A stretch of 64,000 nucleotides of DNA, taken from Marchantia polymorpha subsp. ruderalis (taxonomy: Eukaryota; Streptophyta; Marchantiopsida; Marchantiales; Marchantiaceae). The notes under the pieces were generated by a model. The model ran no database searches. It worked only from the letters and a program-made list of their open reading frames with translations, and had not been told where the DNA came from. The stretch lies in the NCBI GenBank assembly GCA_037833965.1, contig AP031351.1, forward strand, positions 28,780,501 to 28,844,500, in the 5' to 3' direction. Both the position numbers and the translations under genes were made by a program. Positions 14,453 to 57,320 of this stretch are shown here, one piece after another. Every line of letters starts with the position of its first letter. Position 1 is the stretch's first letter.

Positions 14453-15877
14453 ATGGATTGGCGTCCGATGAGCAATCGCGAGGAGAGGGATCCGCAGCTG
14501 ACATTGCACATATTGGAAGGCAACTTCGATGGATTGTGTGTGGGAAGGGTTATGTCAGAGGAGATGGCGGTGGAGATGGATGAGGGATTGTGGAGTCAAT
14601 TGACGGTTGACCTCTTGAGGAAAGTGCTTCTCCGACTGCCTTACGTCAGTCAATTCCGCTTTCGGGCAGTTTGTAAAATCTGGCTCGACATGCTATCTTC
14701 GTCTACCTTTTTGAGAGAGAGTGCAGCGATTCGATCGAGCATCCCGGACACTCCTCCAATCTGCGCGTACGAGTACGAATGTCCAAATCTTTTAGAAAGC
14801 AGCGTGTTACTTCCGACCGAAGGGTTCGAAGAGGTGAGGACGCCCTCGCAGACGCCGCAGCAGGGCGGAGAAGAGCTCGTCCAGAGGCTCCGAGATGCGC
14901 TGCACAGGTCCGCCGGACGCCGGAAGATGCAGAGGATGGATCTCTCCTTCGCACCTTCGTGGATCATGGCGAACAAAATCACGGCGTCGAGAGACGGATT
15001 GATCTGCGCAACCCCTTGCAAAACCTCGAGACTCAAGGGCCCCAAGTCCGCCCACGGAGGGCTTTGTGTCCTGAATCCGTTCACGAGGACCTGGCGGGAG
15101 CTTCCGCCCGTGCCCGATCTGGTCGACGGCAAGACATGGCCATGGGCTCACGAGCTCATGGTCGACAGGGCGTCGCCATCGCACTTCCTCGTGTACGTCA
15201 TTCTCGGTACGATGCACGGCGAGTGGTTCATCTGTCGCTACTCCTCGAAGAACAGCGATTGGGCCATCATTTCAGGAGACACCAAGTCTGCTCCCATAGA
15301 TTGCCGCGACCACTTTTTTGCAGGTGGGTTCCTGTACTCGTGGAAAGTGGATGGCAGTCTCTTGGTTTACAGTTCAGAGGATGGCCATCTCCTGACGAGC
15401 AGCCGGCCAGGGTACCCGGACTTGCCATTCCGAGGTACGGATTTCACAACCATCAGCGTGGAGGTATTAGAACACGAGGGCAGGATTGTTGTAGGCTGGT
15501 CGCTGACCTTGAAGAAGCCGGCCATGCCCATCTTGGGGTTCAGCATGCTGAGTACGGCCATGAAGTGGGAGCAGCTAGTGATTCTGCCAGAGGCCATGAT
15601 GCACAACCGAATCTCGGAGCTCGCCCTGGAGGAGGCCGATCCTGATGTGCCGCCACTGTCATGGGAGCTGGAGGATTACAAGGTGCTCAGCCTCGGGCAC
15701 TTCATCTGCTTTAAACTGACCCACCGGGAAACCTCGCACGATTTCGTTTCTCACAACCTAGTGGGCTTTCACACTCCTTCCCAGACCTGGAAAAGCTTTG
15801 ACTCCAGCTTCCCCCATGTACTAGAGTCCACGGACATCGAGTTTTTTGTTCCTACGTGTTTGCAAGTCCGTCTGTAA
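14453..15877 (+). CDS. F-box protein, upstream member of a tandem pair
   Basis: An uninterrupted 474-residue open frame. The F-box lies at about residues 46-90: LWSQLTVDLLRKVLLRLP, then SQFRFRAVCKIW. Family knowledge: F-box proteins bind SKP1 and bring substrates to SCF ubiquitin ligases. The C-terminal half looks like a kelch/F-box-associated substrate-binding region, with GGLCVLNPFTRTWRELPP near residue 202 and repeated hydrophobic blade-like segments (for example FLYSWKVDGSLLVYS near 292). A distinct N-terminal motif, WRPMSNREERDPQLTLHIL, precedes the F-box and is shared with the second gene, which supports the ATG at 14453; an in-frame stop lies just upstream. No introns. It is a paralogue of the gene at 18837. 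The substrate is unknown. Confidence 0.9.
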   Translation: MDWRPMSNREERDPQLTLHILEGNFDGLCVGRVMSEEMAVEMDEGLWSQLTVDLLRKVLLRLPYVSQFRFRAVCKIWLDMLSSSTFLRESAAIRSSIPDTPPICAYEYECPNLLESSVLLPTEGFEEVRTPSQTPQQGGEELVQRLRDALHRSAGRRKMQRMDLSFAPSWIMANKITASRDGLICATPCKTSRLKGPKSAHGGLCVLNPFTRTWRELPPVPDLVDGKTWPWAHELMVDRASPSHFLVYVILGTMHGEWFICRYSSKNSDWAIISGDTKSAPIDCRDHFFAGGFLYSWKVDGSLLVYSSEDGHLLTSSRPGYPDLPFRGTDFTTISVEVLEHEGRIVVGWSLTLKKPAMPILGFSMLSTAMKWEQLVILPEAMMHNRISELALEEADPDVPPLSWELEDYKVLSLGHFICFKLTHRETSHDFVSHNLVGFHTPSQTWKSFDSSFPHVLESTDIEFFVPTCLQVRL

Positions 15878-18600: not shown

Positions 18601-18836
18601 CATTTGACATTTGCTTTATGCATTTCGTAAGTTTACTTCGGCCGGAGGAGGAGGAGGAGGCGGAGGAGGCCGCACGAGACTGGTCGCCTTTTCGATCCGT
18701 CGAGAGCTGGAGCTCGTCGCTTCGTCCGCTTTCGAGCAGATTCCTGAAATTCATTCGCATGATTCTCAACTGGAAGAAGCGCTCGTGGTCGCCGAACTCT
18801 CGCCTCATTGCGCTGGTCGTACCGGAGAACGAGCCG

Positions 18837-20354
18837 ATGGATAGCAACTTCATACAAAAGTGGCGTCCTATCAGCAACCTGCAGGAGAGAGATCCACAAT
18901 TGAGACTGCACATCTTGCAGGGGACATTCGACGGCTCGACGCACGAAATCTCGAGGCCCGCGCGAAGGGAGCGGTCCTTCTGCAGCAGCTGGGAGATGGA
19001 CTGTCCCGTGCGGGCCAAACTCAGCAGAGATTTGGTGCGGAGGTCCAGAGCAACCGTGTGGAGCAAGCTGAGCTCGGACCTCGTGCTGTCCGTGCTGCTG
19101 CGACTGCCTTCCAAGAGCCAGTTTCGATTCCACGCCGTGTGCCGCGAGTGGCGCGAGAATTTGTCATCGAGCAAATTCGCCGAGGAAAATGCAGCTCTGA
19201 AAGCATCTGCGGCCGGCCCCGATGTCATCTGCGCGTACGAGTACCTGGGGCCGAATCGTGAGGAGCCCGATGTCTACGGGCCTCAAGATTACATTCCCGA
19301 GGGCGCAGTGGAACTCGCCGACAAGCTGCACGACGCCTTCACGAAGTCGCATCGTCGGAAGATTAATGGCATGGATCTCTCGTTTGCGCCCTCGTGGATC
19401 ATCGGGAACCGAATGACGGCCTGCCGAGACGGGCTGCTGCTCTCGTATTCCAAGACCAGGTGGAGGTGCTCGGGTCCTGCTTCGGCTCACGGAGGCATGT
19501 GTCTCATCAACCCATTCACCAGAACCTTCCGCGAGCTCCCTCCCGTTCCTTTCGCGGATGGCGAGCTGCTATGGACGGATCATGTGATGGTGGAGAGGAT
19601 GTCACCTTCTCACTACAGAGCAGTGGTGCTCATGGGTGCCGGCGATGGCAATCAGTGGTCCGTGTACCAGTTTTCCTCGAAGACGAACGAGTGGACAAGC
19701 ACAGCAGGGGACGTGCCGAAGGAGCTTCCTCTGGATGCAATTGGCCGCAAATTCAGATACCTCTCTCAATCTTACATGTTCACGGAGGATCTGCTGTACT
19801 TGTGGAGAGGCAATGTGAACGGGGATTTGCTCATTCACAGCCTGAAAGATGGAAGCCTGCTGAGCATGTCGCGTGTCGGCTACCCCGAGCTGCCTTCGGA
19901 TACGATGGATTGGCGCTTCCTGAAGGTCCATCTGGTGGAGCATCGAGGAGCAATTTATGGCGGGTGGCTGCTGTCGGGCTGGAGGCCTCGGCCAGGATGT
20001 TTGTTCGGAATCAGCAAACTCGATATGGAAACCATGAAATGGGGCGAGCTGGTGGTCTTGCCACAGGAGACTCTGCAGTGCAGCCTTGGATTCCTTGAGC
20101 TTGCGAAAACAGGTATGGATTACCGGCCACATGACTGGAAATTCTACGAGCATAAGGCGGTGGTTGTGGTGGGCGACTACATCTGTATCAGCATCACCTC
20201 CGATCATGTAAATAAGGGAGTGAATCTGCAGTACGTCGGCGGGTTTCACATTCCTTCCAAGTCTTGGCAGAGTTTCGACTTTCATGATCCGTACGTCTCT
20301 GGAACCCACGAATTCGAGCTCTTCGAACCGAATTGCTTACACGTCCACTTATGA
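18837..20354 (+). CDS. F-box protein, downstream member of the tandem pair
   Basis: An intronless 505-residue frame from the ATG at 18837. The F-box is at about residues 75-118 (VWSKLSSDLVLSVLLRLP, SQFRFHAVCREW). The kelch-like C-terminal region holds GGMCLINPFTRTFRELPP near residue 218. MDLSFAPSWI and TACRDGL match the first gene's MDLSFAPSWI and TASRDGL. Both proteins end on similar sequences (FEPNCLHVHL here, FVPTCLQVRL there). I chose 18837 because the shared motif WRPISNLQERDPQLRLHIL then starts at the same place as in the first gene. The frame is open 73 codons further, to an ATG at 18618, with a poly-Glu run, so a longer form is possible. Relative to the first gene there is an extra basic segment between the N-terminal motif and the F-box (about residues 38-70). 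Role by family: SCF ubiquitin-ligase substrate receptor. Confidence 0.9.
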   Translation: MDSNFIQKWRPISNLQERDPQLRLHILQGTFDGSTHEISRPARRERSFCSSWEMDCPVRAKLSRDLVRRSRATVWSKLSSDLVLSVLLRLPSKSQFRFHAVCREWRENLSSSKFAEENAALKASAAGPDVICAYEYLGPNREEPDVYGPQDYIPEGAVELADKLHDAFTKSHRRKINGMDLSFAPSWIIGNRMTACRDGLLLSYSKTRWRCSGPASAHGGMCLINPFTRTFRELPPVPFADGELLWTDHVMVERMSPSHYRAVVLMGAGDGNQWSVYQFSSKTNEWTSTAGDVPKELPLDAIGRKFRYLSQSYMFTEDLLYLWRGNVNGDLLIHSLKDGSLLSMSRVGYPELPSDTMDWRFLKVHLVEHRGAIYGGWLLSGWRPRPGCLFGISKLDMETMKWGELVVLPQETLQCSLGFLELAKTGMDYRPHDWKFYEHKAVVVVGDYICISITSDHVNKGVNLQYVGGFHIPSKSWQSFDFHDPYVSGTHEFELFEPNCLHVHL

Positions 20355-20990: not shown

Positions 20991-21460
20991 ACCCTGACAC
21001 GACTCGAAACCATGTGATTGCCCAGGGTCACAGTGGAACCGACTCGAGCCTACTGCGGTTTATTCTCCTCTGACACTACTTGAAACCATGTGATTGCCCA
21101 TGGTCACAGTGGAACCGACTCGAGCCTACTGTGGTTCATTCTCCTCGGCCACAACTTGAAACCATGTGATTGCCCATGGTCACAGTGGAACCGACTCGAG
21201 CCTACTGTGGTTCACTCTCCTCTGACACAACTTGAAACCATGTGATTGCCCATGGTCACAGTGGAACCGACTCGAGCCTACTGTGGTTCACTCTCCTCTG
21301 ACACAACTTGAAACCATGTGATTGCCCATGGTCACAGTGGAACCGACTCGAGCCTACTGTGGTTCATTCTCCTCGGCCACAACTTGAAACCAGGTGATTG
21401 ACCGCGGTAAAAGTTGAACGAACTCAAGCCTGCTGTAGTTCATTCATTTATCGGGAACTG
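20991..21460. repeat. 76-bp tandem repeat, about six copies
   Basis: The marker GAAACCATGTGATTGCC recurs with starts at 21006, 21082, 21158, 21234 and 21310, exactly 76 bp apart, and a diverged copy starts at 21386. Inner copies are almost identical and the first and last are more diverged. Each unit has a TGTGA element and a TCACA element flanking a CCATGG core, followed by ACCGACTCGAGCCTACTGTGG. It lies about 640 bp past the second F-box stop. Confidence 0.95.
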
Positions 21461-44631: not shown

Positions 44632-47600
44632 ATGCCACAGAGTCAGAATGGGCTCAGTGCGGAAACGGAAGAAGCAGGAGGATGTGCCAATGGGAGCGAC
44701 GATGAAAGTATTAACGGGGGACTGAAAGGCAGCCCCAGGTGGTCACGAGTGAGCAGCGGTACCAAAGGATGGCGTTTGAGAGGGGTGGAATGGCGTGTGA
44801 AGCTTGGCGTCTTGCCAGGCAGCGCTGCCTCTGTCGATGCGATGCGCCGCGCCACTGCCGATGGCCGTCGGAGGTGAGCATGTGGTTTCACACACTTCCG
44901 CACCACCATCAGGATTCTTTTCGCTGAGCTTCATGTCGATCGGTCGTGTATTTGAGATTGAGTCGTATGCTTATCACTGGAGATACTTATGCATCTGCAG
45001 ATCCCACATCTTTCATGCCAGTAAGTATGATTCTCGGCAAGATTAATCTGCTGAGCTCTATGTGAGCAATTCTTATGATGAGAAAATATTCAAACTCTCA
45101 TAGATTTTATCGAACTGGCTGTAGTCACTGAGGAGTTTCTCATTCACTCAATACCCGAGGCCGCAGTGCAGTGCAGTGCAGTTCACTTCAGTTTAGTTTC
45201 AGTAGGCTAGAATAGTGGCCTTTCTCTGGCTGTTCAAGTGACTTACATAAATTCTTGCAATTCTTCTCGTATTCGTTCATTCCATTCTCCTGCAATGGCA
45301 GAAGCCTCGGGTCTCATGTATAAAAGTTACCTTCTTCACTAATCTGAACTAGAGTCTTTGTCTCAGTCGTGGAAAATCCTTGGACTTTGCAAGTGTGTCA
45401 CTTTGAATTGTCATGTTGTATGGGACTGCCGCCTTGACCGTTTTCGTGAGAAACTTGTTTACCTTCTTAAATTATCACTATGCAGCCGGCCCCGAATGAT
45501 TGATGCCTTACATTACAGCTATCCAAATTGTCGTCTGTACCTTTGTCACGCATTGGAGCTTTGGTACTATGCTTTTCTCATGGGGATTTACCTCTAGGTG
45601 TAGAATATCAGTTGACTTTTATGGTGTGTCTTGCTAGTATGGCACATCCACATCAGAACTGACCTGAACCCTCTTTCCCATGATGCCGGTTATCCGATTG
45701 TCTTACAGGCAATTTACAATGCTTTTGGTAGCCAGGAAGGATCAGAGGGAATGCCGTGCTTTATTTAGCTGAGTCTGGATGATTCTCATGCTGGTGCTTC
45801 ATTGAGTTCACTTCGCAAGCCCTTACTGCTTTTTTCTTTTGGTTAAATTTATCATGTTGGGTGGTCGCAGATATGCAGATCTACGAAGACGGCTGCTGGT
45901 CGATCCTCACATTATGGACGATGATGAGGAAGATACTAGCATGGATAATCCACTTTCCCTCGATCCTGGTAAGCAGTTGTAACATTTTTTGGAACATTCT
46001 TTCCTTGAGTTCTTAGTTTGGAAATGTCATGTGCCTTCTCCTCGTCTGTGATGTCCCGCTAATTTTACTGAGGTAATGCGATGGCGTTGGAATGTTTGTG
46101 ATAACAAATCAAAATGGGATGACATGAATGCAGAAAGCGTTTGGGGTCGGTACTTCCGGAATGCCGAATTGGAGAAGACTATCGACAAGGATCTTACACG
46201 GTTATATCCTGAGCACGGCATCTTCTTCCAGAGTGCTCCTTGTCAGGCTATGATGCGACGTATCTTGCTCGTGTGGTCCCTCATCCACCCACAATTCAGC
46301 TACCGTCAAGGTGGGGTTTATAATCTATTTTACGTACAGATACTCAAGTTCCTTTGGTTTGTTGACGAATTGCTCTCGGCTGAAGCTCCATTGAAGAAGA
46401 ACTTCAATGGAGCTTCTGGAGGTTCTCAAAGGAGGTTGTCCGTTCAAATGCGTGTACTCAGATGTACCCGTCGTCAGCAGATTCGACACGGAGAGCAGTT
46501 CGGTTGTTCACGTCCATTTTTAACGAATCTTTTGACTTTTGCAGGCATGCACGAATTGCTTGCACCGCTGCTATATGTTCTACACGTCGATGTTGTGCGC
46601 CTGTCACAAGTGAAGCATCGATTCGAAGACCTTTTTGATGATAGATTTGACAGCCTGTCTCTTCAAGAAGACCATGTGAGGGATAAAGTGGAGTCGGCCA
46701 AGAAATTTGTAGGGGAGATGATAATAGCAGGAGACTCGATAAATTTCGATGATAAAGGGCAGAAAACTGCGGATCCTGCAGCCGATTCTGATGAAAAAAG
46801 GGTTGACCTAAGTGTTATCGTCCAGGGCAGCGATATGTATGGAGTTGAGGGCGAGTTGGGTGCTCTTCTTTCAGCTCGATTTTTAGAGCATGATGCTTAC
46901 TGTATGCTGGATGCCATGCTCATTGGGCAGGGTGGGGCTGTGTCAATGGCTGCCTACTTCTCTTCACCACCAGGTGTAAGTGTACCTCCAGTAATAGAAG
47001 CATCGGCTGCTCTCTATCGGACCTTGGCTGCTGCTGACATCTCTCTTTACACTCATCTCGTGGAACTGGGGGTGGAACCACAGTTCTTCGCTCTTCGTTG
47101 GCTTCGTCTGCTCTTTGGGCGAGAGTTCATTCTTGAGGACTTGTTGCGCGTGTGGGACGCTATCTTAACAGCAGATAACACTCCTCTTTTCGTGGAAGAT
47201 GGAGACGAGGATAGCTGCATTTTGAGGTTCTCCCAGAGAAGTGCGCTCATCTCTTCTATGGCGGTTTCAATGCTTCTCTATGTCCGGCCAGCTCTGCTTG
47301 CAGCCCCTGATGCTACGGCCTGTCTGCAACGCTTGCTCAACTTTCCACAAATTCCGGATGTGAGGAACTTGATTGATAGTGCCAGGTCGCTTCAGCCTCT
47401 CGCACGAGCAGCTGAAAGATCCCCGACCCCAACTGTACCAAGAAGCACTCGTGCGTCTGAAATTAGTAGGAATGGCAAGCATGCTCGCAGTGGTAGTATT
47501 TCTCCACCGACTACTACGCATCATGTCATGCGTCATCAAAAATCAGCCTCGTGTTCTCCGGATGTCTTAAGAGTGTCCATGTCCTTGCCGGGAAGTTATT

Positions 47601-49464
47601 GGGAAGAGAAATGGACTCACTCTGTTCTTCAAAGGAAGTCTCCGGAGGAGCTGTTCAGCCCCAGGACAAGCAAGTTGGAGGCAGTCGTAAGGAATCAGGA
47701 AAATGTCGATAGAGATACGTCTTCGGCGATGCTGAGCAGGAGTGTCAGCGAAGGAAGACATCAGCTCAATCTCCCATTAGCTCAATCTGCTGTAGCTCAG
47801 CCCGCGTCTGGTTCGCCTGACACTTCTCAGGATTCCAGTGACGAAGAGGGAAGGGAGATGCTGGGAAGAAGTGAGAAAGCCCCTGGAGTGACCAGAGACT
47901 CCAAGGACTCTTCGGCTGAGTCGGTTGCCAGTACGAGTGACTGTGACGGTTCTCGTGATAGTGATAGTGAGGGTCAGGAGTTATTGAGTCATCGTAGGGC
48001 ATCTACGGACGAAGAAGGTTCTGCGACTTCTCCAGCTCTAAGGTTGAAGCTTTCATGCGCGGATAGTTGTTTGGAGGATGAAAATCCTGGAAGTCCTCAG
48101 GAGACGAAAATAAACTCTTGTGTCACTTCCGGTTGTTGTCAGAAGCCCGATGAGCAGAAGAAGAGTAGCTCAGCTAAACCATGTCAGAGAAGGGTTTCAT
48201 CGGACTCCCAATTGCCGGTTTCCGGCAGCGGCGGTACTCTGGAGTCAGATGTTAAACCTCGAAATGTGTCTTCCTCAACTCAAATGGGTATAGAAACCGA
48301 GGCAGTTCGGCTGGGAGCTGAGAATGGAAGTGTGTGTTTGCCGGTAAGCAGCAGTAATTCACCCCTTCATGAAGAAAGTACTAAAGTAAAATCACCATGT
48401 GTTTCGGATTCACAATTAAGAATGGGTATTGTATCTAGTGCAAGTTGCGAAAACTTGAAGTCACAGGATGCAGAGTCTACACGTACTTCCCAATCTCCCT
48501 TACCCGAATCTGTAGTTGAGGGCCAAGGAGGTGACCGAAGTGGGGTGGAGGATACGTCAAGAAGTGTCGATAGTTCACCTCTTCCATCGAAGTTCAAAGC
48601 CGAGGCTCCTACAGCGCAACCAGCACGGTTAGGCAGGCTGAACTGGGTTTGGAGTCTCGGCCGGGCCAGCTTTGGAGACAAAACAGCTCCCAGCAAAATT
48701 GAAACTACGACTAGCTCAGTTGTCCATCCCACGAGTGGAAATGTTAGTGACACCGAGGGATTAGGCAGTCCTCTTGCTAATGGGGTGAGGAAGCCGAAGC
48801 GGTGGTGGCGTTCCAACAATGACGTGGTGCCTGAAGAATTTGTGGCAACTACTAGCAGTGATGACAGCATTGCTGCTGAGCATTCTGCTGTTACTCTGCA
48901 AGTCGATGATGTGAAGAACACAAATGAGTCAGTTTTCATTGGCTCGGGTGTGCTGCAGAAGGAGGATGTGTCAGTGGAGACACAAGTTACTTCTCAAGAG
49001 GCCGTTAAGAAGCCAAAGGAGAAAACTCCCTCAGCAGCTTTGCAAGCACTTGGTCAGGCAATGCTGGAGCACGTTCAGGTCTGTTGTCGGAAACTTCTTA
49101 GCAGGGCATCCCTGGCCCACCGTCTGTTAGAAACTTTATCTTCGCTAAAGTGAATCTTCCCTTTTGCTCCTTGTTGGACGATAGGCATTAAGCCTTTTTT
49201 TGCGGACGGAGTAAGGTACAGGGCCAAGTTTGAACCTTGTTTTTCTTGGTTTCTCTCATCTCTGTTTTTCACTTCATGCAGGTTCTTGAGTCTTCTTTGG
49301 CCCAAAAAGCATCGGTTTTGGGCATGGAAACCATGATGTGGACTCCCGCCGTTCGAGAAAAAAGTGAGGGCACCAGGAGTAGTCTTGGTGGCAAGAGTCA
49401 AGCTGCAGCTTTAGCAGCTATCGCTGAGCTTCGAAAAATTAGCAATGCTTTACAGCAAATGTAA
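44632..49464 (+). CDS. TBC1D5-like Rab GTPase-activating protein
   Basis: Five exons: 44632-44873, 45871-45968, 46134-46310, 46545-49078 and 49282-49464. All junctions are GT-AG and the phases agree, giving about 1,077 residues. It should speed GTP hydrolysis on a Rab GTPase and so regulate membrane traffic; TBC1D5 homologues act with retromer and in autophagy. The start reads WRLRGVEWRVKLGVLP, then RYADLRRRLLVDPH, the usual N-terminus of this family. The TBC domain spans about residues 60-390. It has the arginine-finger motif IDKDLTR (residues 130-136) and the glutamine-finger motif YRQ (170-172), so it should be catalytically active. GVEPQFFALRWLRLLFGREF (about 350-370) is the conserved C-terminal part. 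The rest is serine-rich and acidic, probably disordered, with a WVWSLGR segment typical of plant members and a C-terminal helical segment. The start is the first in-frame ATG. Confidence 0.9.
46311..46544 (+). other. Stop-free 234-bp intron inside the TBC domain
   Basis: The donor follows TACCGTCAAG and the acceptor is TTTTGCAG; splicing restores YRQGMHELLAP, the expected family sequence. The intron is 78 codons long and open in the coding frame, so retention would insert 78 residues directly after the catalytic YRQ. It also holds a perfect 15-bp stem at 46382-46416. I call it an intron because splicing restores the family sequence exactly. Confidence 0.85.
46382..46416 (+). repeat. Perfect hairpin within the TBC intron
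   Basis: GAAGCTCCATTGAAG at 46382-46396 and CTTCAATGGAGCTTC at 46402-46416 are exact reverse complements around AAGAA. Confidence 0.95.
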
Positions 49465-52134: not shown

Positions 52135-52199
52135 AATTTTAAAGGTGAAAAATAACTAATACGGTTGAACCGTATTAGTTATTTTTCACCTTTAAAATT
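52135..52199. repeat. 65-bp perfect palindrome
   Basis: The arms at 52135-52166 and 52168-52199 are exact reverse complements over 32 bp around a single G. The arms end in ACGGTT/AACCGT at the centre. A partial further copy of the central motif (AATACGGTTCAACC) follows immediately. This may be a foldback transposon relic or a recent inverted duplication. Confidence 0.97.
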
Positions 52200-52236: not shown

Positions 52237-52277
52237 TTGTTATTCTCTTTACCCACCATAGAGAAGATGAAAAATCT
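52237..52277. repeat. 41-bp dispersed repeat, copy 1
   Basis: The 41 bases beginning TTGTTATTCTCTTTACCC and ending GATGAAAAATCT recur exactly at 56084-56124, inside the hAT-like relic. Just before this copy stands TACAATAACACCTT, whose reverse complement precedes the other copy. It may be a terminal or sub-terminal part of the same transposon family. Confidence 0.9.
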
Positions 52278-52622
52278 GAGTTGCGTTTATAATTGTCTGC
52301 TGTTGAAGAGATCATGATGTTTATTCTTTGTTGTTGAAGCATTGATATCGATGAAATGTCATCAAACAAGCTCAAAACTCTATTCAAGTCCGTTCATGAA
52401 CTTGAGCACGGTGTGAGCACAAAATTGTGCTCACATGTATTTTTACCCTTATGAAAGTTAAAAGTTTGGATTTAAGCTCTTGCAAAATTATGCTTGGGGT
52501 TTTCTGAAAGTTTCTGTAAGATTAGGAGTTGGTGTGATGGTTAGGGGCAAGAGGTGCGGAAGGAGGCCATCGGGGCAAGGTCTTCGGCGAAGTGCCTTTG
52601 GTGAAGTCTCTTCGGGAAAAGG

Positions 52623-53930
52623 CCTTCGGCGAAGGAGTGAAACTCTCATAACGTTTTCAATGTGTGACGCCTTAACTCAGTTAGAGTCTTGTTGAAAAGA
52701 GCTCGCGACACTCGTTCCAACAAGACCAAGAACTCTTGAAACGGATGAGGCATCACCGAGTTAGGAGCGGCGGAAGTTTCTGATATGGAGGGCCTTCGGC
52801 GGGTGGCGCGTAGGCGGCTTGCGTGTAAGACGCGGACGCCTGCGCGTAGGCGGCCTGCGCATAGGCAAACGCCTTCGGCGGAAGGGTAAAATCGTGATAA
52901 CGTTTTCAATTCTTAACGGTTTGCGTTGGTTAGGCTCTCGTTGGAAAGGGCTCGACACGCTCGTTTTAACGAGCCCAAAAACGCTTGGAACAGATGAGAA
53001 CTTAGGGAGTTATCACTATCAGAAGATACGTAGACGTTCGCCTCCGGCGGGAATTCCGCCTACGCGGAAGGGAGTTCAACTTTTGTCCTATGCGCGGACG
53101 GATGCCTTCGGCGGTTACAGGCCTTCGACGAAGCAGTAAAACCGGCATATCTTTTTCAATTCTTAACGGTTTGCAATGGTTAGGATCTCGTTGGAAAGAG
53201 CTCGACAAGCTCGTTCTAACGAGCCCAAGAACGCTTGGAACGGATGAGGACTTAGGGAGTTATGACTATCGGAAGATATGTAGACGTTCACCTTTGGCGA
53301 AAGGAGTTCGCCTCCGCCGGAAATTCCGCCTACGCGGAAGGGAGTTCAACTTTTGTCCTATGCGCGGACACACGCCTCCGGCGGTTGCAGGCCTTCGGCG
53401 AAGCAGTAAAACCAGCATATCTTTTTCAATTCTTAGCGTTTTGACTTGATTCGGGTCTCGTTGGAAAGAACTCGACGCGTTGGTTCCAACGAGACCAAGA
53501 TCTCCTGAAACGGATCAATCATCAATGAGTTATGAGCGTCGAAAGCGGCTGTCATGGTTAGGCGAGAGGCCTTCGGCGTTAACAGTTAGAGGGGCCTTCG
53601 GCGTTAACATATAGAGGGGCCTTTGGCCAAGGACGCCTGCGAGTAGGCGGCCTGCGTGGAGGACGCGGACGCCTGCGAGTAGGCGGACGCCTGCGGGTAG
53701 GCAGCCTGCGGGTAGGACGCGGACGCCTGCGGGTAGGCAGCCTGCGGGTAGGACGCGGACGCCTGCGGATGGGCAAACGCCTTCGGCGGAAGAGTAAAAA
53801 CCGTCATAACTTTCTCAATTCTTATTGTTTTGACTTAGTTAGGAGCTCGTTGGAAAGAGCACAACACGCTTGTTCCAACGAGCCCAAGAACGATTTAAAC
53901 GAAGCAGGGATCCGTGAGTTATGGGCGTCG
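52623..53930. repeat. Array of five structured GC-rich repeat units
   Basis: The units lie at about 52623-52776, 52872-53025, 53122-53275, 53392-53545 and 53780-53930. Each begins with a CCTTCGGCGAAGG-type hairpin, then A.TAAAA, then TTTTCAATTCTTA, then a longer hairpin with CTCGTTGGAA and TTCCAACGAG arms, then AAGAACGCTTGGAACGGATGA, and ends near GAGTTATGA. The spacers after units 2 and 3 are also related to each other, giving a larger period of 250-270 bp. Some frames stay open across the units, but units 1 and 2 have stops in the matching frame, so I do not call a protein. CCTTCGGCG itself occurs about nine times in the region. Confidence 0.9.
53630..53775. repeat. 36-bp GC-rich minisatellite
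   Basis: Lying between structured units 4 and 5, it is built from GGACGCGGACGCCTGCGGGT followed by AGGCAGCCTGCGGGTA, 36 bp in all. It has about four full or partial copies and is nested in composition, since shorter CCTGCGGGTAGG modules recur inside. Confidence 0.85.
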
Positions 53931-54360
53931 GGGTGACTGTTATAGATAGGCAAAGGTGCAGAAGAGTGTCTTCAGCGGGGGATGCCTTCGGCGGTGCGCG
54001 GAAGACAATTTCGGACGGCGGATGTTGACGTGATCATAAATAAAGACTGTACAGGTGTGGCAGCGGCGGGGCATGAAGTTGCACATGGGAGCCAGGCCGT
54101 TGCACATCATCGCGGGAACGGCATTCACGTGGGCTGTGGGTGACTCGGCCCTTGAACGTTGGAGAGGAATTTTCGACCTGGGGATAGAGATCGTGTGGTG
54201 CGCCATTGTGTGGAGACGCTGGTGGTATCGGTAGGAGGATAGAGTGTGGACGTGAGTGATTTTCGCAGGGAAGTGGTGAGGATTAGGAGGGGAGTGTGGA
54301 GAGTTCGAAGTAGGAGAAAGCAACTTCTCGTGGGTGATGAGTCGTATCGGAGAGTGAAAT

Positions 54361-54540
54361 TAGATTGGGATCTGAGATTGAGGTGCGACATCTGTGAGTG
54401 GGATCTGAGATTGAAGTGAAATCTGTGAGTGAGATCCGAGATTGAAGTGTAATCTGTGAGTGGTATCTGAGATTGAAGTGAATTCCGTGAGTGGGATCTG
54501 AGATTGAAGTGTAATCTGTGAGTGGGATCCGAGATCAGAG
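54361..54540. repeat. 31-bp minisatellite
   Basis: A TCTGTGAGTGGGATCTGAG-type start recurs at 54391, 54422, 54453, 54484 and 54515, exactly 31 bp apart, with GATTGAAGTG in each unit. Related, more diverged GAATCTGAGAG-type sequence continues to about 54.7 kb. On the minus strand the array stays open in frame; this is a repeat artefact. Confidence 0.92.
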
Positions 54541-55530
54541 TGGAAGACCTGAGAATGATAGCTGTGAGTGAAGCGAAATCTGAGACTGAAATCTGACAGT
54601 AAGGACTTGAATTTGAAACTGAAAAGGGAGAGTTGAATCTGAGAGAGGAATCTGGTGGGGTCTGAAAGTGGATGCTGAGAAATCGACACTGAAATCTGAG
54701 TAGGAATTGGGAGTGGAACTCGGAGCTAGTATAGACCACAACGATTGTGGTATTGAGAACGTCACCAAGAGTTGGGTTAGATCTTTATGTAACAAAGAGC
54801 TTGTATGCTGCTCTTGTGGAGATAGCAGATAGCAAGTTATTATTTTCAGTTTTGGATAATTTGTCTGTGAAAGAGCAAGTGTTTATGATCTCATTGTCTT
54901 GAATACATTTTGACCACATGGTTGAGATCAGAGAAGTTAGATTATGGGAGCTCGAACCCCCACCTGGACTACAAACGCTGAAGGGTGGGGAGTTTAGGCT
55001 CACACACGGATTAAAATTTTTGACACGGAAACCGTTGTTTGATTACGTTACATTAGTTTTGTGTCGCTTTTGTCAAGTATAGTACCCTGAAGAAATGATC
55101 AGATAGAAGCGCAAGCTGGCTAATACCACAAAGTACTTTAAAGTTCCAAAGTGATTAGAATTGTACTCAAAACATCTCAAAATCCAACACTTGACGAAGT
55201 GAAGTGAATATTGTTATCTATCACTAGACGTTGAGCAAATTTTCTTTAATGCTATTGCTTTAATGAATACAAGTCATGCTCATTTTGTTGAATCAGTTAT
55301 ATTTTGATAAAAACATAAACATCGTCGATACAATCTACGCACGCATCTATTTGATTCGGAAGTTGAAGATATTTCTATTGATTGTTTGTTGAGATTCTTT
55401 GAGCCAATCAAATCTGACAATGCGATTGTATGTTATTAAGTTCATAGTTTTAAATCCAAACATTCTAAGTTTGTTTTTGGGATGGTTGGTCTTGGCTCTT
55501 TGTTTAGTTTAATAGCGTATTAAGTGGAGT

Positions 55531-57320
55531 GTGCACGCAAAGAACTCGCTTCTGGTTATTTTAGCGGATGAGAGTCAAAAGTATCATTGTTTGTTTGAGT
55601 TTCTGTTGTCGTTTGACTTCAAAAACTCAATAAATTACTCGTTGATTGTTAGAACTATTCTGTTGCGTTCGATTCATCAACTATTGAGAGCAACTCGTAT
55701 TTTGACATTCAAGTGAAATTTGTTGTAGAATTCAAGCTGTATTGCTTTCATTTATGTTGTATTCTTCTTTACGGGCGACACAAAGGAGAAAATTTGTTCA
55801 AGATGTTTGAGAAGGCTATGGATTCAATTTGTTCATCTTGGGAATATAAACTTTTATCAACATGCTTTGAAGATACTAGGAATATGTTTTCACTCAAGTT
55901 GAACAAGAAAAATGCTACTTGATATGATTTTGATGTGATGTACATCAATTCAATCATGTTGTTTAAGCTGTTATTTTTATATATCTTAACAAAGAATTTT
56001 ATTCGACGTTAATTGCCATCATTGGAGATCTGAATAAGCAGATCTCCAATAACAAGAATGACAAGGTGTTATTGTATATAATGTTGTTATTCTCTTTACC
56101 CACCATAGAGAAGATGAAAAATCTACTTGATATGATTTTGATGTGATGTACATCAATTCAATCATGTTGTTCAATCTGTTATTTTTATATATCTTAACAA
56201 AGAATTTTATTTGACGTTAATTGCCATCATTGGAGATCTGCGTCAAGAACAAAAGTTGATCAACAAAATGCGATCTAAATGTCCGAAAGTCGCTACGACT
56301 AGCTGGTTATTGTTGACGAAAGTATTGCTTTGGTTTTCAACTCATCGTTGCCGTATTATTGAATACATAAACCAAGAGAATTTTGATTTCAATTCAACTA
56401 TCATGCGGTGGATTGTTTTATTATCATTGATCACAAAAGTAATAGAGATTGACATTGTGTTCAAAACCTTGTAGCATTCTACATTATTGGTTACACAATA
56501 AGAAGTCATCTTCTTTAGGTTCAATTCATGTCTTTGGTATGTGACAACATGCAAGGTACATTCTCCAGATTGCTATTCCAGGAACAAGATCAAGACATAT
56601 GCTGTTGTGACAAGTTTTTACACTATTGCCAAGAACGATGTTGTGCATTTTGTTCAAATGTGTGGTTTGTTTATTTTGAAATGATTTGATAGCTTATCTC
56701 AAGTTGAGAAGAATGTTGTGGTTTGTTCTGTTGAAAACTAAATCATTAGTATTGCAGCAAAAATATATTCTGATCAAGCCAGATTGGATTGATAATAATG
56801 CATCGGCAGTGTTACATGTTTTTTTTGTGAATTCGCGATCATGCTTGCATCAAGCTTTGTGGATCTGATCATTTGATTACGATCTTGGCTTGAAAAGAAA
56901 TTCACCAACGAGTACTTTGACCGCTTAAAACAGGAACACAAAGAACTGCGGACTGCTTGAAGATTTACTTCGTGAAATATTCGATCAAATGCCGAAGTCT
57001 GTAGATTTTCATGAAGCATGGAGTACTTTCAAACCTCAATTTTCCAAATTATGCATGTTTGTTGGAGTATTTGCTAATGTATATCCTGGTAATACACGTG
57101 TGGAAAATGATTTTTCCGTGGTTAGTTGGAAGAAAGACGACTACATATTGTACTCAATGGATTTGTCACTCGAGTGCATCATGCATTGTAATCAATTCAA
57201 GTAAATTCAAACCATTTAAAACGTTGGTAATATTTTTGATAAAAAATTTTGATGATGCCATGATAAACTTATTTATGACAGATTTGGCAAATGCCAAGTT
57301 AACTGATGCATGTCAATGAT
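55531..57320 (+). pseudogene. Relic of a hAT-like transposase gene
   Basis: Broken frames on the plus strand resemble parts of a hAT-type transposase. One piece (about 56.27-56.47 kb) has KCPKVATTSWLLLTKVL, like the segment before the insertion domain. The last piece (56989-57204) has PGNTRVENDFSVVSWKKDDY then LSLECIMHCNQFK, like the C-terminal dimerisation region that usually reads as a variant of 'ESDFS...LSLEGI..KQ'. Stops and frameshifts separate the pieces, so it is not functional. A 118-bp direct duplication and a foldback interrupt it. Target-site duplications and complete ends were not found. I rely on remembered family patterns, so the superfamily is probable but not certain. Confidence 0.6.
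55915..56240. repeat. 118-bp direct duplication with a foldback between copies
   Basis: The copies at 55915-56032 and 56123-56240 (offset 208) differ at only a few bases. The first copy ends ATTGGAGATCTG, followed by AATAAG and then CAGATCTCCAAT, a perfect 12-bp foldback (56021-56050). The 41-bp dispersed repeat (copy 2, 56084-56124) fills the rest of the gap. It lies in the hAT-like relic. Confidence 0.95.

Follow-up and report, generated by a model that had tools for sequence, protein, structure and literature searches.

Five tandem units between positions 52623 and 53930 of the window, the whole 64,000-nucleotide stretch of Marchantia polymorpha subsp. ruderalis DNA analysed here, raise the question of what kind of element they belong to and whether the hairpin that each carries is selected as a fold. 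The initial annotation took matched changes in the hairpin arms as a sign of selection on a fold, or of copying from a family with a conserved fold, and knew no named element with this layout.

Repeat units in the window

Reading of the sequence and a repeat search both bear out five related hairpin-bearing units, each with its palindrome, which is imperfect and about 44 nt long. The arm coordinates first given for units 1 and 2 match on a base-by-base check, and the arms of units 3-5 are present by reading, as is a short CTTC-GGC/GGCG/GAC-GAAG hairpin preceding each unit. With a 169-nt reference, the repeat search places the starts of the five copies at 52620, 52869, 53119, 53389 and 53778, with the last copy ending at 53946. 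Successive unit starts are 249, 250, 270 and 389 bp apart, and units 2-5 are 61-73% identical to unit 1. From these positions and spacings, the units share a conserved core of about 170 bp, and the spacing (249-389 bp) is wider than the unit size of about 150 bp originally proposed. The units, all identified by HMM match and sequence, are as follows:

52620..52789, + strand: unit 1 (class A1), arms 52686-52694 / 52718-52726
52869..53039, + strand: unit 2 (class A-mid), arms 52937-52946 / 52964-52973
53119..53289, + strand: unit 3 (class A-mid), arms 53187-53196 / 53214-53223
53389..53559, + strand: unit 4 (class A-pen), arms 53454-53466 / 53484-53496; on average 95% identical to unit 4 of family B
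53777..53946, + strand: unit 5 (class A-last), arms 53845-53855 / 53873-53883

The spacers between the units hold further short GC-rich tandem repeats (Tandem Repeats Finder). When up to three mismatches are allowed, CGTTGGAAAGAGCTCGAC has four matches in the window, all inside the array, against 0.04 expected. The hairpin fold z values for units 1-5 are -1.8, -1.7, -4.2, -4.8 and -6.5 on the sense strand and -3.3, -1.2, -3.4, -4.7 and -5.5 on the opposite strand; the folds are above chance in units 3-5 and weak in units 1-2 on the sense strand, and the two strands are similar.

The solo LTR and its element

The array lies inside a long terminal repeat (LTR), for which the following features were assigned:

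52407..52411, no strand: 5' target-site duplication CACGG (sequence reading and script)
52412..55004, + strand: solo LTR, family A, 2593 bp, TGTGAGC...GCTCACA (homologous copies, ends, duplication)
55005..55009, no strand: 3' target-site duplication CACGG (sequence reading and script)
54035..54049, + strand: TATA-like motif CATAAATAAAGACTG, putative promoter, about 89 bp past the last unit
54366..54535, + strand: 31-bp tandem array distinct from the units, 3' part of the LTR (Tandem Repeats Finder)

The boundaries at 52412 and 55004 are the ends of homologous copies among the BLAST matches listed, and copies of both LTR ends are present elsewhere in the genome. Given the TGTGAGC and GCTCACA ends and the CACGG on both sides, this is a solo LTR, and the array occupies its 5' part, which by its position would be U3.

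The genome searched comprises 241 Mb in nine contigs. Each of the two Mp-EF1 primers published for M. polymorpha (PMC9701658) has one exact match in it; the two matches converge and enclose 110 bp, which fits M. polymorpha or a very close relative. For each LTR end, the best 40 of 653 and 693 first-look candidates, respectively, were scored, and these figures are not copy counts. The LTR sample consists of 28 family A and six family B LTRs that are complete in the fetched loci; it is not random, since the loci were fetched mostly with unit queries. In family A, 16 of the 28 LTRs have an exact 5-bp duplication, eight are followed by the primer-binding site TAAAATGGTGCGTCTG, and four have neither. 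The family B LTRs, with ends TGTGGTAACCCAC...GTGGGTTATTACA, show an exact 5-bp duplication in five of six cases. A tRNA-Gly(TCC) of the genome is complementary, at its 3' end, to the TAAAATGGTGCGTCTG primer-binding site, and the gag behind one LTR with this site matches PF03732 (E 3.1e-11) and, under the cut-off of 29.1 bits, PF19259 (Ty3_capsid; E 5e-6, 26.5 bits). Because other copies of the LTR lead into the tRNA-Gly primer-binding site and gag, the element is classed as Ty3/gypsy, a placement made by its predicted gag (Retrotrans_gag and Ty3_capsid models). The layout for which no named element had been known can be placed in this way as the LTR of a Ty3/gypsy retrotransposon.

The family A element that carries this gag seems to span C7:2627437-2643802, the first 4 kb of its interior being covered by the reading. 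GGCGG precedes its 5' LTR and follows the end of its 3' LTR, and 306 bp at its LTR ends are 97.4% identical. Nested in its interior (L077:2506-4001) is a third, LTR-like repeat (type C, start TGTGGTACCCCAC) with one unit.

The possibility that the units are a protein-coding repeat in which the pairing is incidental was not supported, the longest ORF over the units being 119 aa (53090-53449). A 127-aa minus-strand ORF (53940-54323) reaches unit 5 only in its final 7 bases, and for another on that strand within the LTR (54125-54739, 204 aa) all Pfam matches are below the cut-off.

Several other repeats and genes are found around the LTR. At 52135-52199, 212 bp upstream of the LTR, is a perfect inverted repeat of 32 bp with a loop of 1 nt, and a perfect 41-bp direct repeat (52237-52277 / 56084-56124) flanks the LTR at a distance of 3.8 kb, with a 124-bp duplication (55909/56117) nearby. 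These 41-bp repeats and the 124-bp duplication perhaps belong to an older element that received the LTR insertion. Further upstream are a 1025-aa ORF with a RabGAP-TBC domain (46076-49153), F-box/KIB1-4 beta-propeller ORFs at 14453-15877 and 18618-20354, the second with a propeller match just under the cut-off, and, downstream of an F-box ORF, a 76-bp tandem array (20994-21445, 5.9 copies, 93% matches).

Array layout and promoter context

All 131 units in the 34 LTRs of the sample are sense-oriented and lie in the 5' part of the LTR, with two to five units per LTR in family A and two to four in family B. The first unit begins at LTR position 210-211 in 25 of the 28 A LTRs, in most LTRs of both families the array starts around 200-210 bp, and it ends 35-63% along the LTR. 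The observed/expected CpG ratio in the array averages 1.30 in the 28 A LTRs and 1.39 in the six B LTRs; that of the LTR part behind the array is 0.72. The TATA-like motif is a plain sequence match: CATAAATAAAGACTG, with two or fewer substitutions, is found in 26 of 27 A LTRs (LTR L014 is without a match), and among the 27 A copies measured its distance behind the array is 88-90 bp in 26 and 72 bp in one.

On the basis of the CpG-rich 5' array, the TATA-like motif and a plan resembling that of the Sirevirus LTRs (vide infra), the units are read here as U3 enhancer repeats. That the array represents promoter/enhancer repeats in U3 of a Ty3/gypsy solo LTR, most likely acting as DNA, is the explanation that we consider somewhat probable, its function being deduced from this context. 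The array is copied along with the element, and its size ranges from two to five units per family A LTR. Proteins may bind the palindrome of each unit, in a CpG-rich stretch that lies upstream of a TATA-like promoter, and such a binding-site array would be expected to raise transcription of the element. Counting against the enhancer reading is the TATA-like motif itself, which is identified by plain match and is distant or absent in family B, where TATAAAA occurs about 420-460 bp behind the array in four of six LTRs and is absent in two. Also against it, family A units show no greater conservation than the remainder of their LTR, and the stem pairs more than its tree-aware null predicts, as it would with an RNA fold too.

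Exchange of units between LTR families

A comparison of unit classes between the two families, from which L043 was left out as a near copy of L042, gives a mean identity of 0.95 for A-pen and B4, 0.87 for A-mid and B3, and 0.73 for A1 and B1. When the A locus L011 is compared with the B locus L016 by BLAST, 506 bp match at 95% around two units; among the matches listed, the others are shorter unit-to-unit matches and one 281-bp match at 88%, which represents an A-type LTR end about 2.7 kb before the B LTR. Among the matches listed for L011 and a second B locus, L012, other parts are without a BLAST match at 1e-20. Two units are thus 87-95% identical across families A and B but the first units only 73%, and on these identities unit blocks, in this case a block of two units, have been exchanged between the two LTR families. 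Template switching in the course of reverse transcription is the probable route of this exchange.

Type C and units of other loci have about 195 bp in common, starting at the palindrome, at 82-93%, and both type C and type D contain sequences that can still be identified as units, with 59-75% identity to the A and B classes. It is conceivable, if on balance doubtful, that the array constitutes a palindromic promoter cassette that recombines between otherwise unrelated LTR families of a single plant genome while keeping its orientation and position, and that this cassette may be old, given its presence in A, B, the LTR-like type C and D. Flowering plants have similar repeats that contain GTTGGAAAG. 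The consensus of a wheatgrass satellite (satellite 19-202), in the part of the source that gives it, contains an 11-base match, CGTTGGAAAGC, to the first part of the palindrome, which could be due to chance (PMC7349979).

Covariation in the palindrome stem

The palindrome might instead be preserved as RNA. The units would then form stem-loops at the 3' terminus of the genomic RNA, where U3 precedes R, with a role in packaging, dimerisation, stability or 3'-end formation, and the fold would be under selection. We regard this reading as rather unlikely, despite the shared sense orientation of all 131 units, which fits it; against it, the folds are similar on both strands, and the deepest unit (L012:6691-6862, minus strand) has a largely broken stem.

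For tests of covariation, 245 distinct units were kept of 337 non-overlapping matches; units were dropped if they ran off a locus end, had a model span below 70, contained N or were identical, as overlapping loci repeat units. In the null, the changes of each column are relocated along a FastTree tree; in an improved version (300 replicates), the commonest base is placed at the root and tip and inner changes are treated separately. The mean G of the ten stem pairs in the 245 units is 8.3, against 13.6 in the first null (p 0.67, 200 replicates) and 11.9 in the improved null (p 0.64, 300 replicates). None of the ten pairs is individually significant on G, the largest value being 52.9 for pair 7-39 (p 0.195 and 0.167), and neither the inner pairs nor the outer CATAAC/GTTATG stem is above the null as a group. 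There are no compensating double changes on any branch of the tree, and RNAalifold, one of the checks proposed in the initial annotation, predicts 0 pairs on an alignment of 30 diverse units (less than 90% identity) taken from the 245. The proposal that covariation reveals selection on a fold is not supported by these tests: a lack of significant covariation over many copies, which the initial annotation had named as a refuting outcome, is what the G test on the 245 units and RNAalifold on the 30 gave.

The arm changes themselves are dominated by two types. On inner branches, 17 are C to T and 13 are G to A (30 of 38 changes; p 0.58), and at the tips 35 are C to T and 41 are G to A (76 of 120). 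Changes that leave a sense-strand wobble are not preferred among the arm changes on the tree, where 16 wobbles turned into Watson-Crick pairs and four into mismatches. The matched changes seen in the window units stem mainly from these common C-to-T and G-to-A hits. The three arm positions at which matched changes had been described are indeed matched in the five units of the window. In other copies, pair 18-28, where the AGC/GCT set becomes AAC/GTT in unit 4, is an A.C mismatch in 18 of 24 A-pen units and A-T in four of 24. Pair 7-39, which is T-A in unit 1 and lies at a CpG, is T.G in 15 of 27 A1 units and T-A in 11 of 27. Pair 4-42 is T-A in 26 of 27 A1 and 24 of 24 A-pen units, G-C in 22 of 24 A-last units and unpaired T.C in 30 of 33 A-mid units; with p 0.02 for its pairing share and p 0.053 for G under the improved null, it is the best residue of covariation among the three positions.

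The share of standard pairs in the stem is 0.958 against 0.866 in the improved tree-aware null (p 0.003), and that of Watson-Crick pairs is 0.892 against 0.784 (0 of 300 replicates). The majority-base share of the 20 arm columns is 0.930 against 0.880 in the null (3 of 100), compared with 0.807 against 0.811 for the 152 other columns, and the excess in arm conservation is reached by 9 of 2000 matched column sets. The excess in pairing over the null is largely single-column conservation. What pairing adds to column composition is small (0.958 against 0.950 in shuffles that ignore relatedness, 0 of 500). In the 30 diverse units, 94.3% of cells pair (reached by 15 of 500 shuffles) and the covariation score is reached by 17 of 500, both above slid controls, but pairs changed on both sides are not above the shuffles (309 of 500). 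A 15-pair version on the same units gives 3, 27 and 265 of 500 for pairing, covariation score and changes on both sides, and an inner-to-tip comparison of the arms is not significant (p 0.08). The arms are conserved beyond matched columns and pairing is above the null, which points to constraint on the palindrome as such, whether in DNA or in RNA. The hairpin is real and its units are copies of a larger family, as had been suspected, and a fold is possible given the pairing share and the shuffle scores above the controls. Matched changes in five paralogous palindromes are insufficient to infer a selected fold.

A further reading holds that the units have no function and have been amplified passively, like a satellite, within an LTR that changes fast, with the palindrome reflecting descent from one palindromic ancestor. 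Units within family A (again without L043) are no more conserved than the remaining LTR, their number varies there, and the spacers contain other tandem repeats, all of which would be expected under this reading. It is nevertheless improbable in view of the arm conservation described above, of an orientation and start position that are the same in most A and B LTRs even though other parts of L011 and L012 are without a BLAST match at 1e-20 among those listed, and of units that can still be recognised in types C and D. Finally, the inverted repeat could hold the element in check by giving rise to precursors of small RNAs or by serving as a target for silencing, which the stable stem of units 3-5 would allow, but this is very improbable: a stem of only 10-13 bp is short for a plant microRNA precursor, and Rfam gives 0 matches at the gathering score in the window and eight weak matches in 52500-54100, all below the cut-off, the best of them to a microRNA family at a chance-level 22.9 bits against a cut-off of 97.

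Comparison with known systems

The reading as U3 enhancer repeats can be set beside what is known of other LTRs. The Ty3/gypsy superfamily is common in Marchantia (PMC9985172); the passages of that liverwort study that deal with it are without mention of LTR repeat arrays, and the word 'solo' occurs 0 times in its text. In the Marchantia literature on LTR retrotransposons, transposons and palindromes or tandem repeats, no title or abstract opening among the papers listed describes the array, which may still have been published. A literature search with the letters of the palindrome motif found no paper on such an element, and an eLife paper matched by GTTGGAAAGCTC has 0 occurrences of it in the main text. 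The motif also had 0 matches in a virus collection (two patterns) and in a prokaryote genome collection, neither of which is a plant collection.

In grass centromeric retrotransposons (CR), LTR segments have been exchanged between subfamilies, according to the sections of the study that treat them (PMC4079200). LTR parts are likewise swapped between families here. Unlike in the CR elements as those sections present them, the shared block is about 500 bp and contains two units, and the families are otherwise without a BLAST match among the matches listed. If the array is the enhancer of its element, regulatory repeats have passed from one retrotransposon family to another in Marchantia, and such exchange is relevant to the ways in which silenced elements retain or recover their expression.

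The plan of the array resembles that of the Sirevirus LTRs. As set out in the relevant passages of the Sirevirus study, the upper half of the LTR contains repeats of a palindromic motif, from 200-400 bp in, and these palindromes sit upstream of a TATA motif, together with a CpG island (PMC2829016). The repeated motifs, or RM boxes, number at least eight copies per element, are 10-20 bp long and have a CGG-CCG core in all but one case; the authors propose a role in regulation and call for experiments (PMC2829016). Like the RM boxes so described, the units here start about 210 bp into the LTR and form a CpG-rich array followed by a TATA-like motif. Unlike the Sirevirus elements, which are Ty1/copia, the element here is Ty3/gypsy by its gag, and it has two to five units per LTR, each with a core of about 170 bp and a palindrome of about 44 nt. 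The match of gag to the Retrotrans_gag and Ty3_capsid models would place the element outside the Sirevirus lineage (Ty1/copia), and the Sirevirus-type layout, with a repeated palindrome upstream of a TATA motif in a CpG-rich part of the LTR, is found here, the TATA being recognised by match only.
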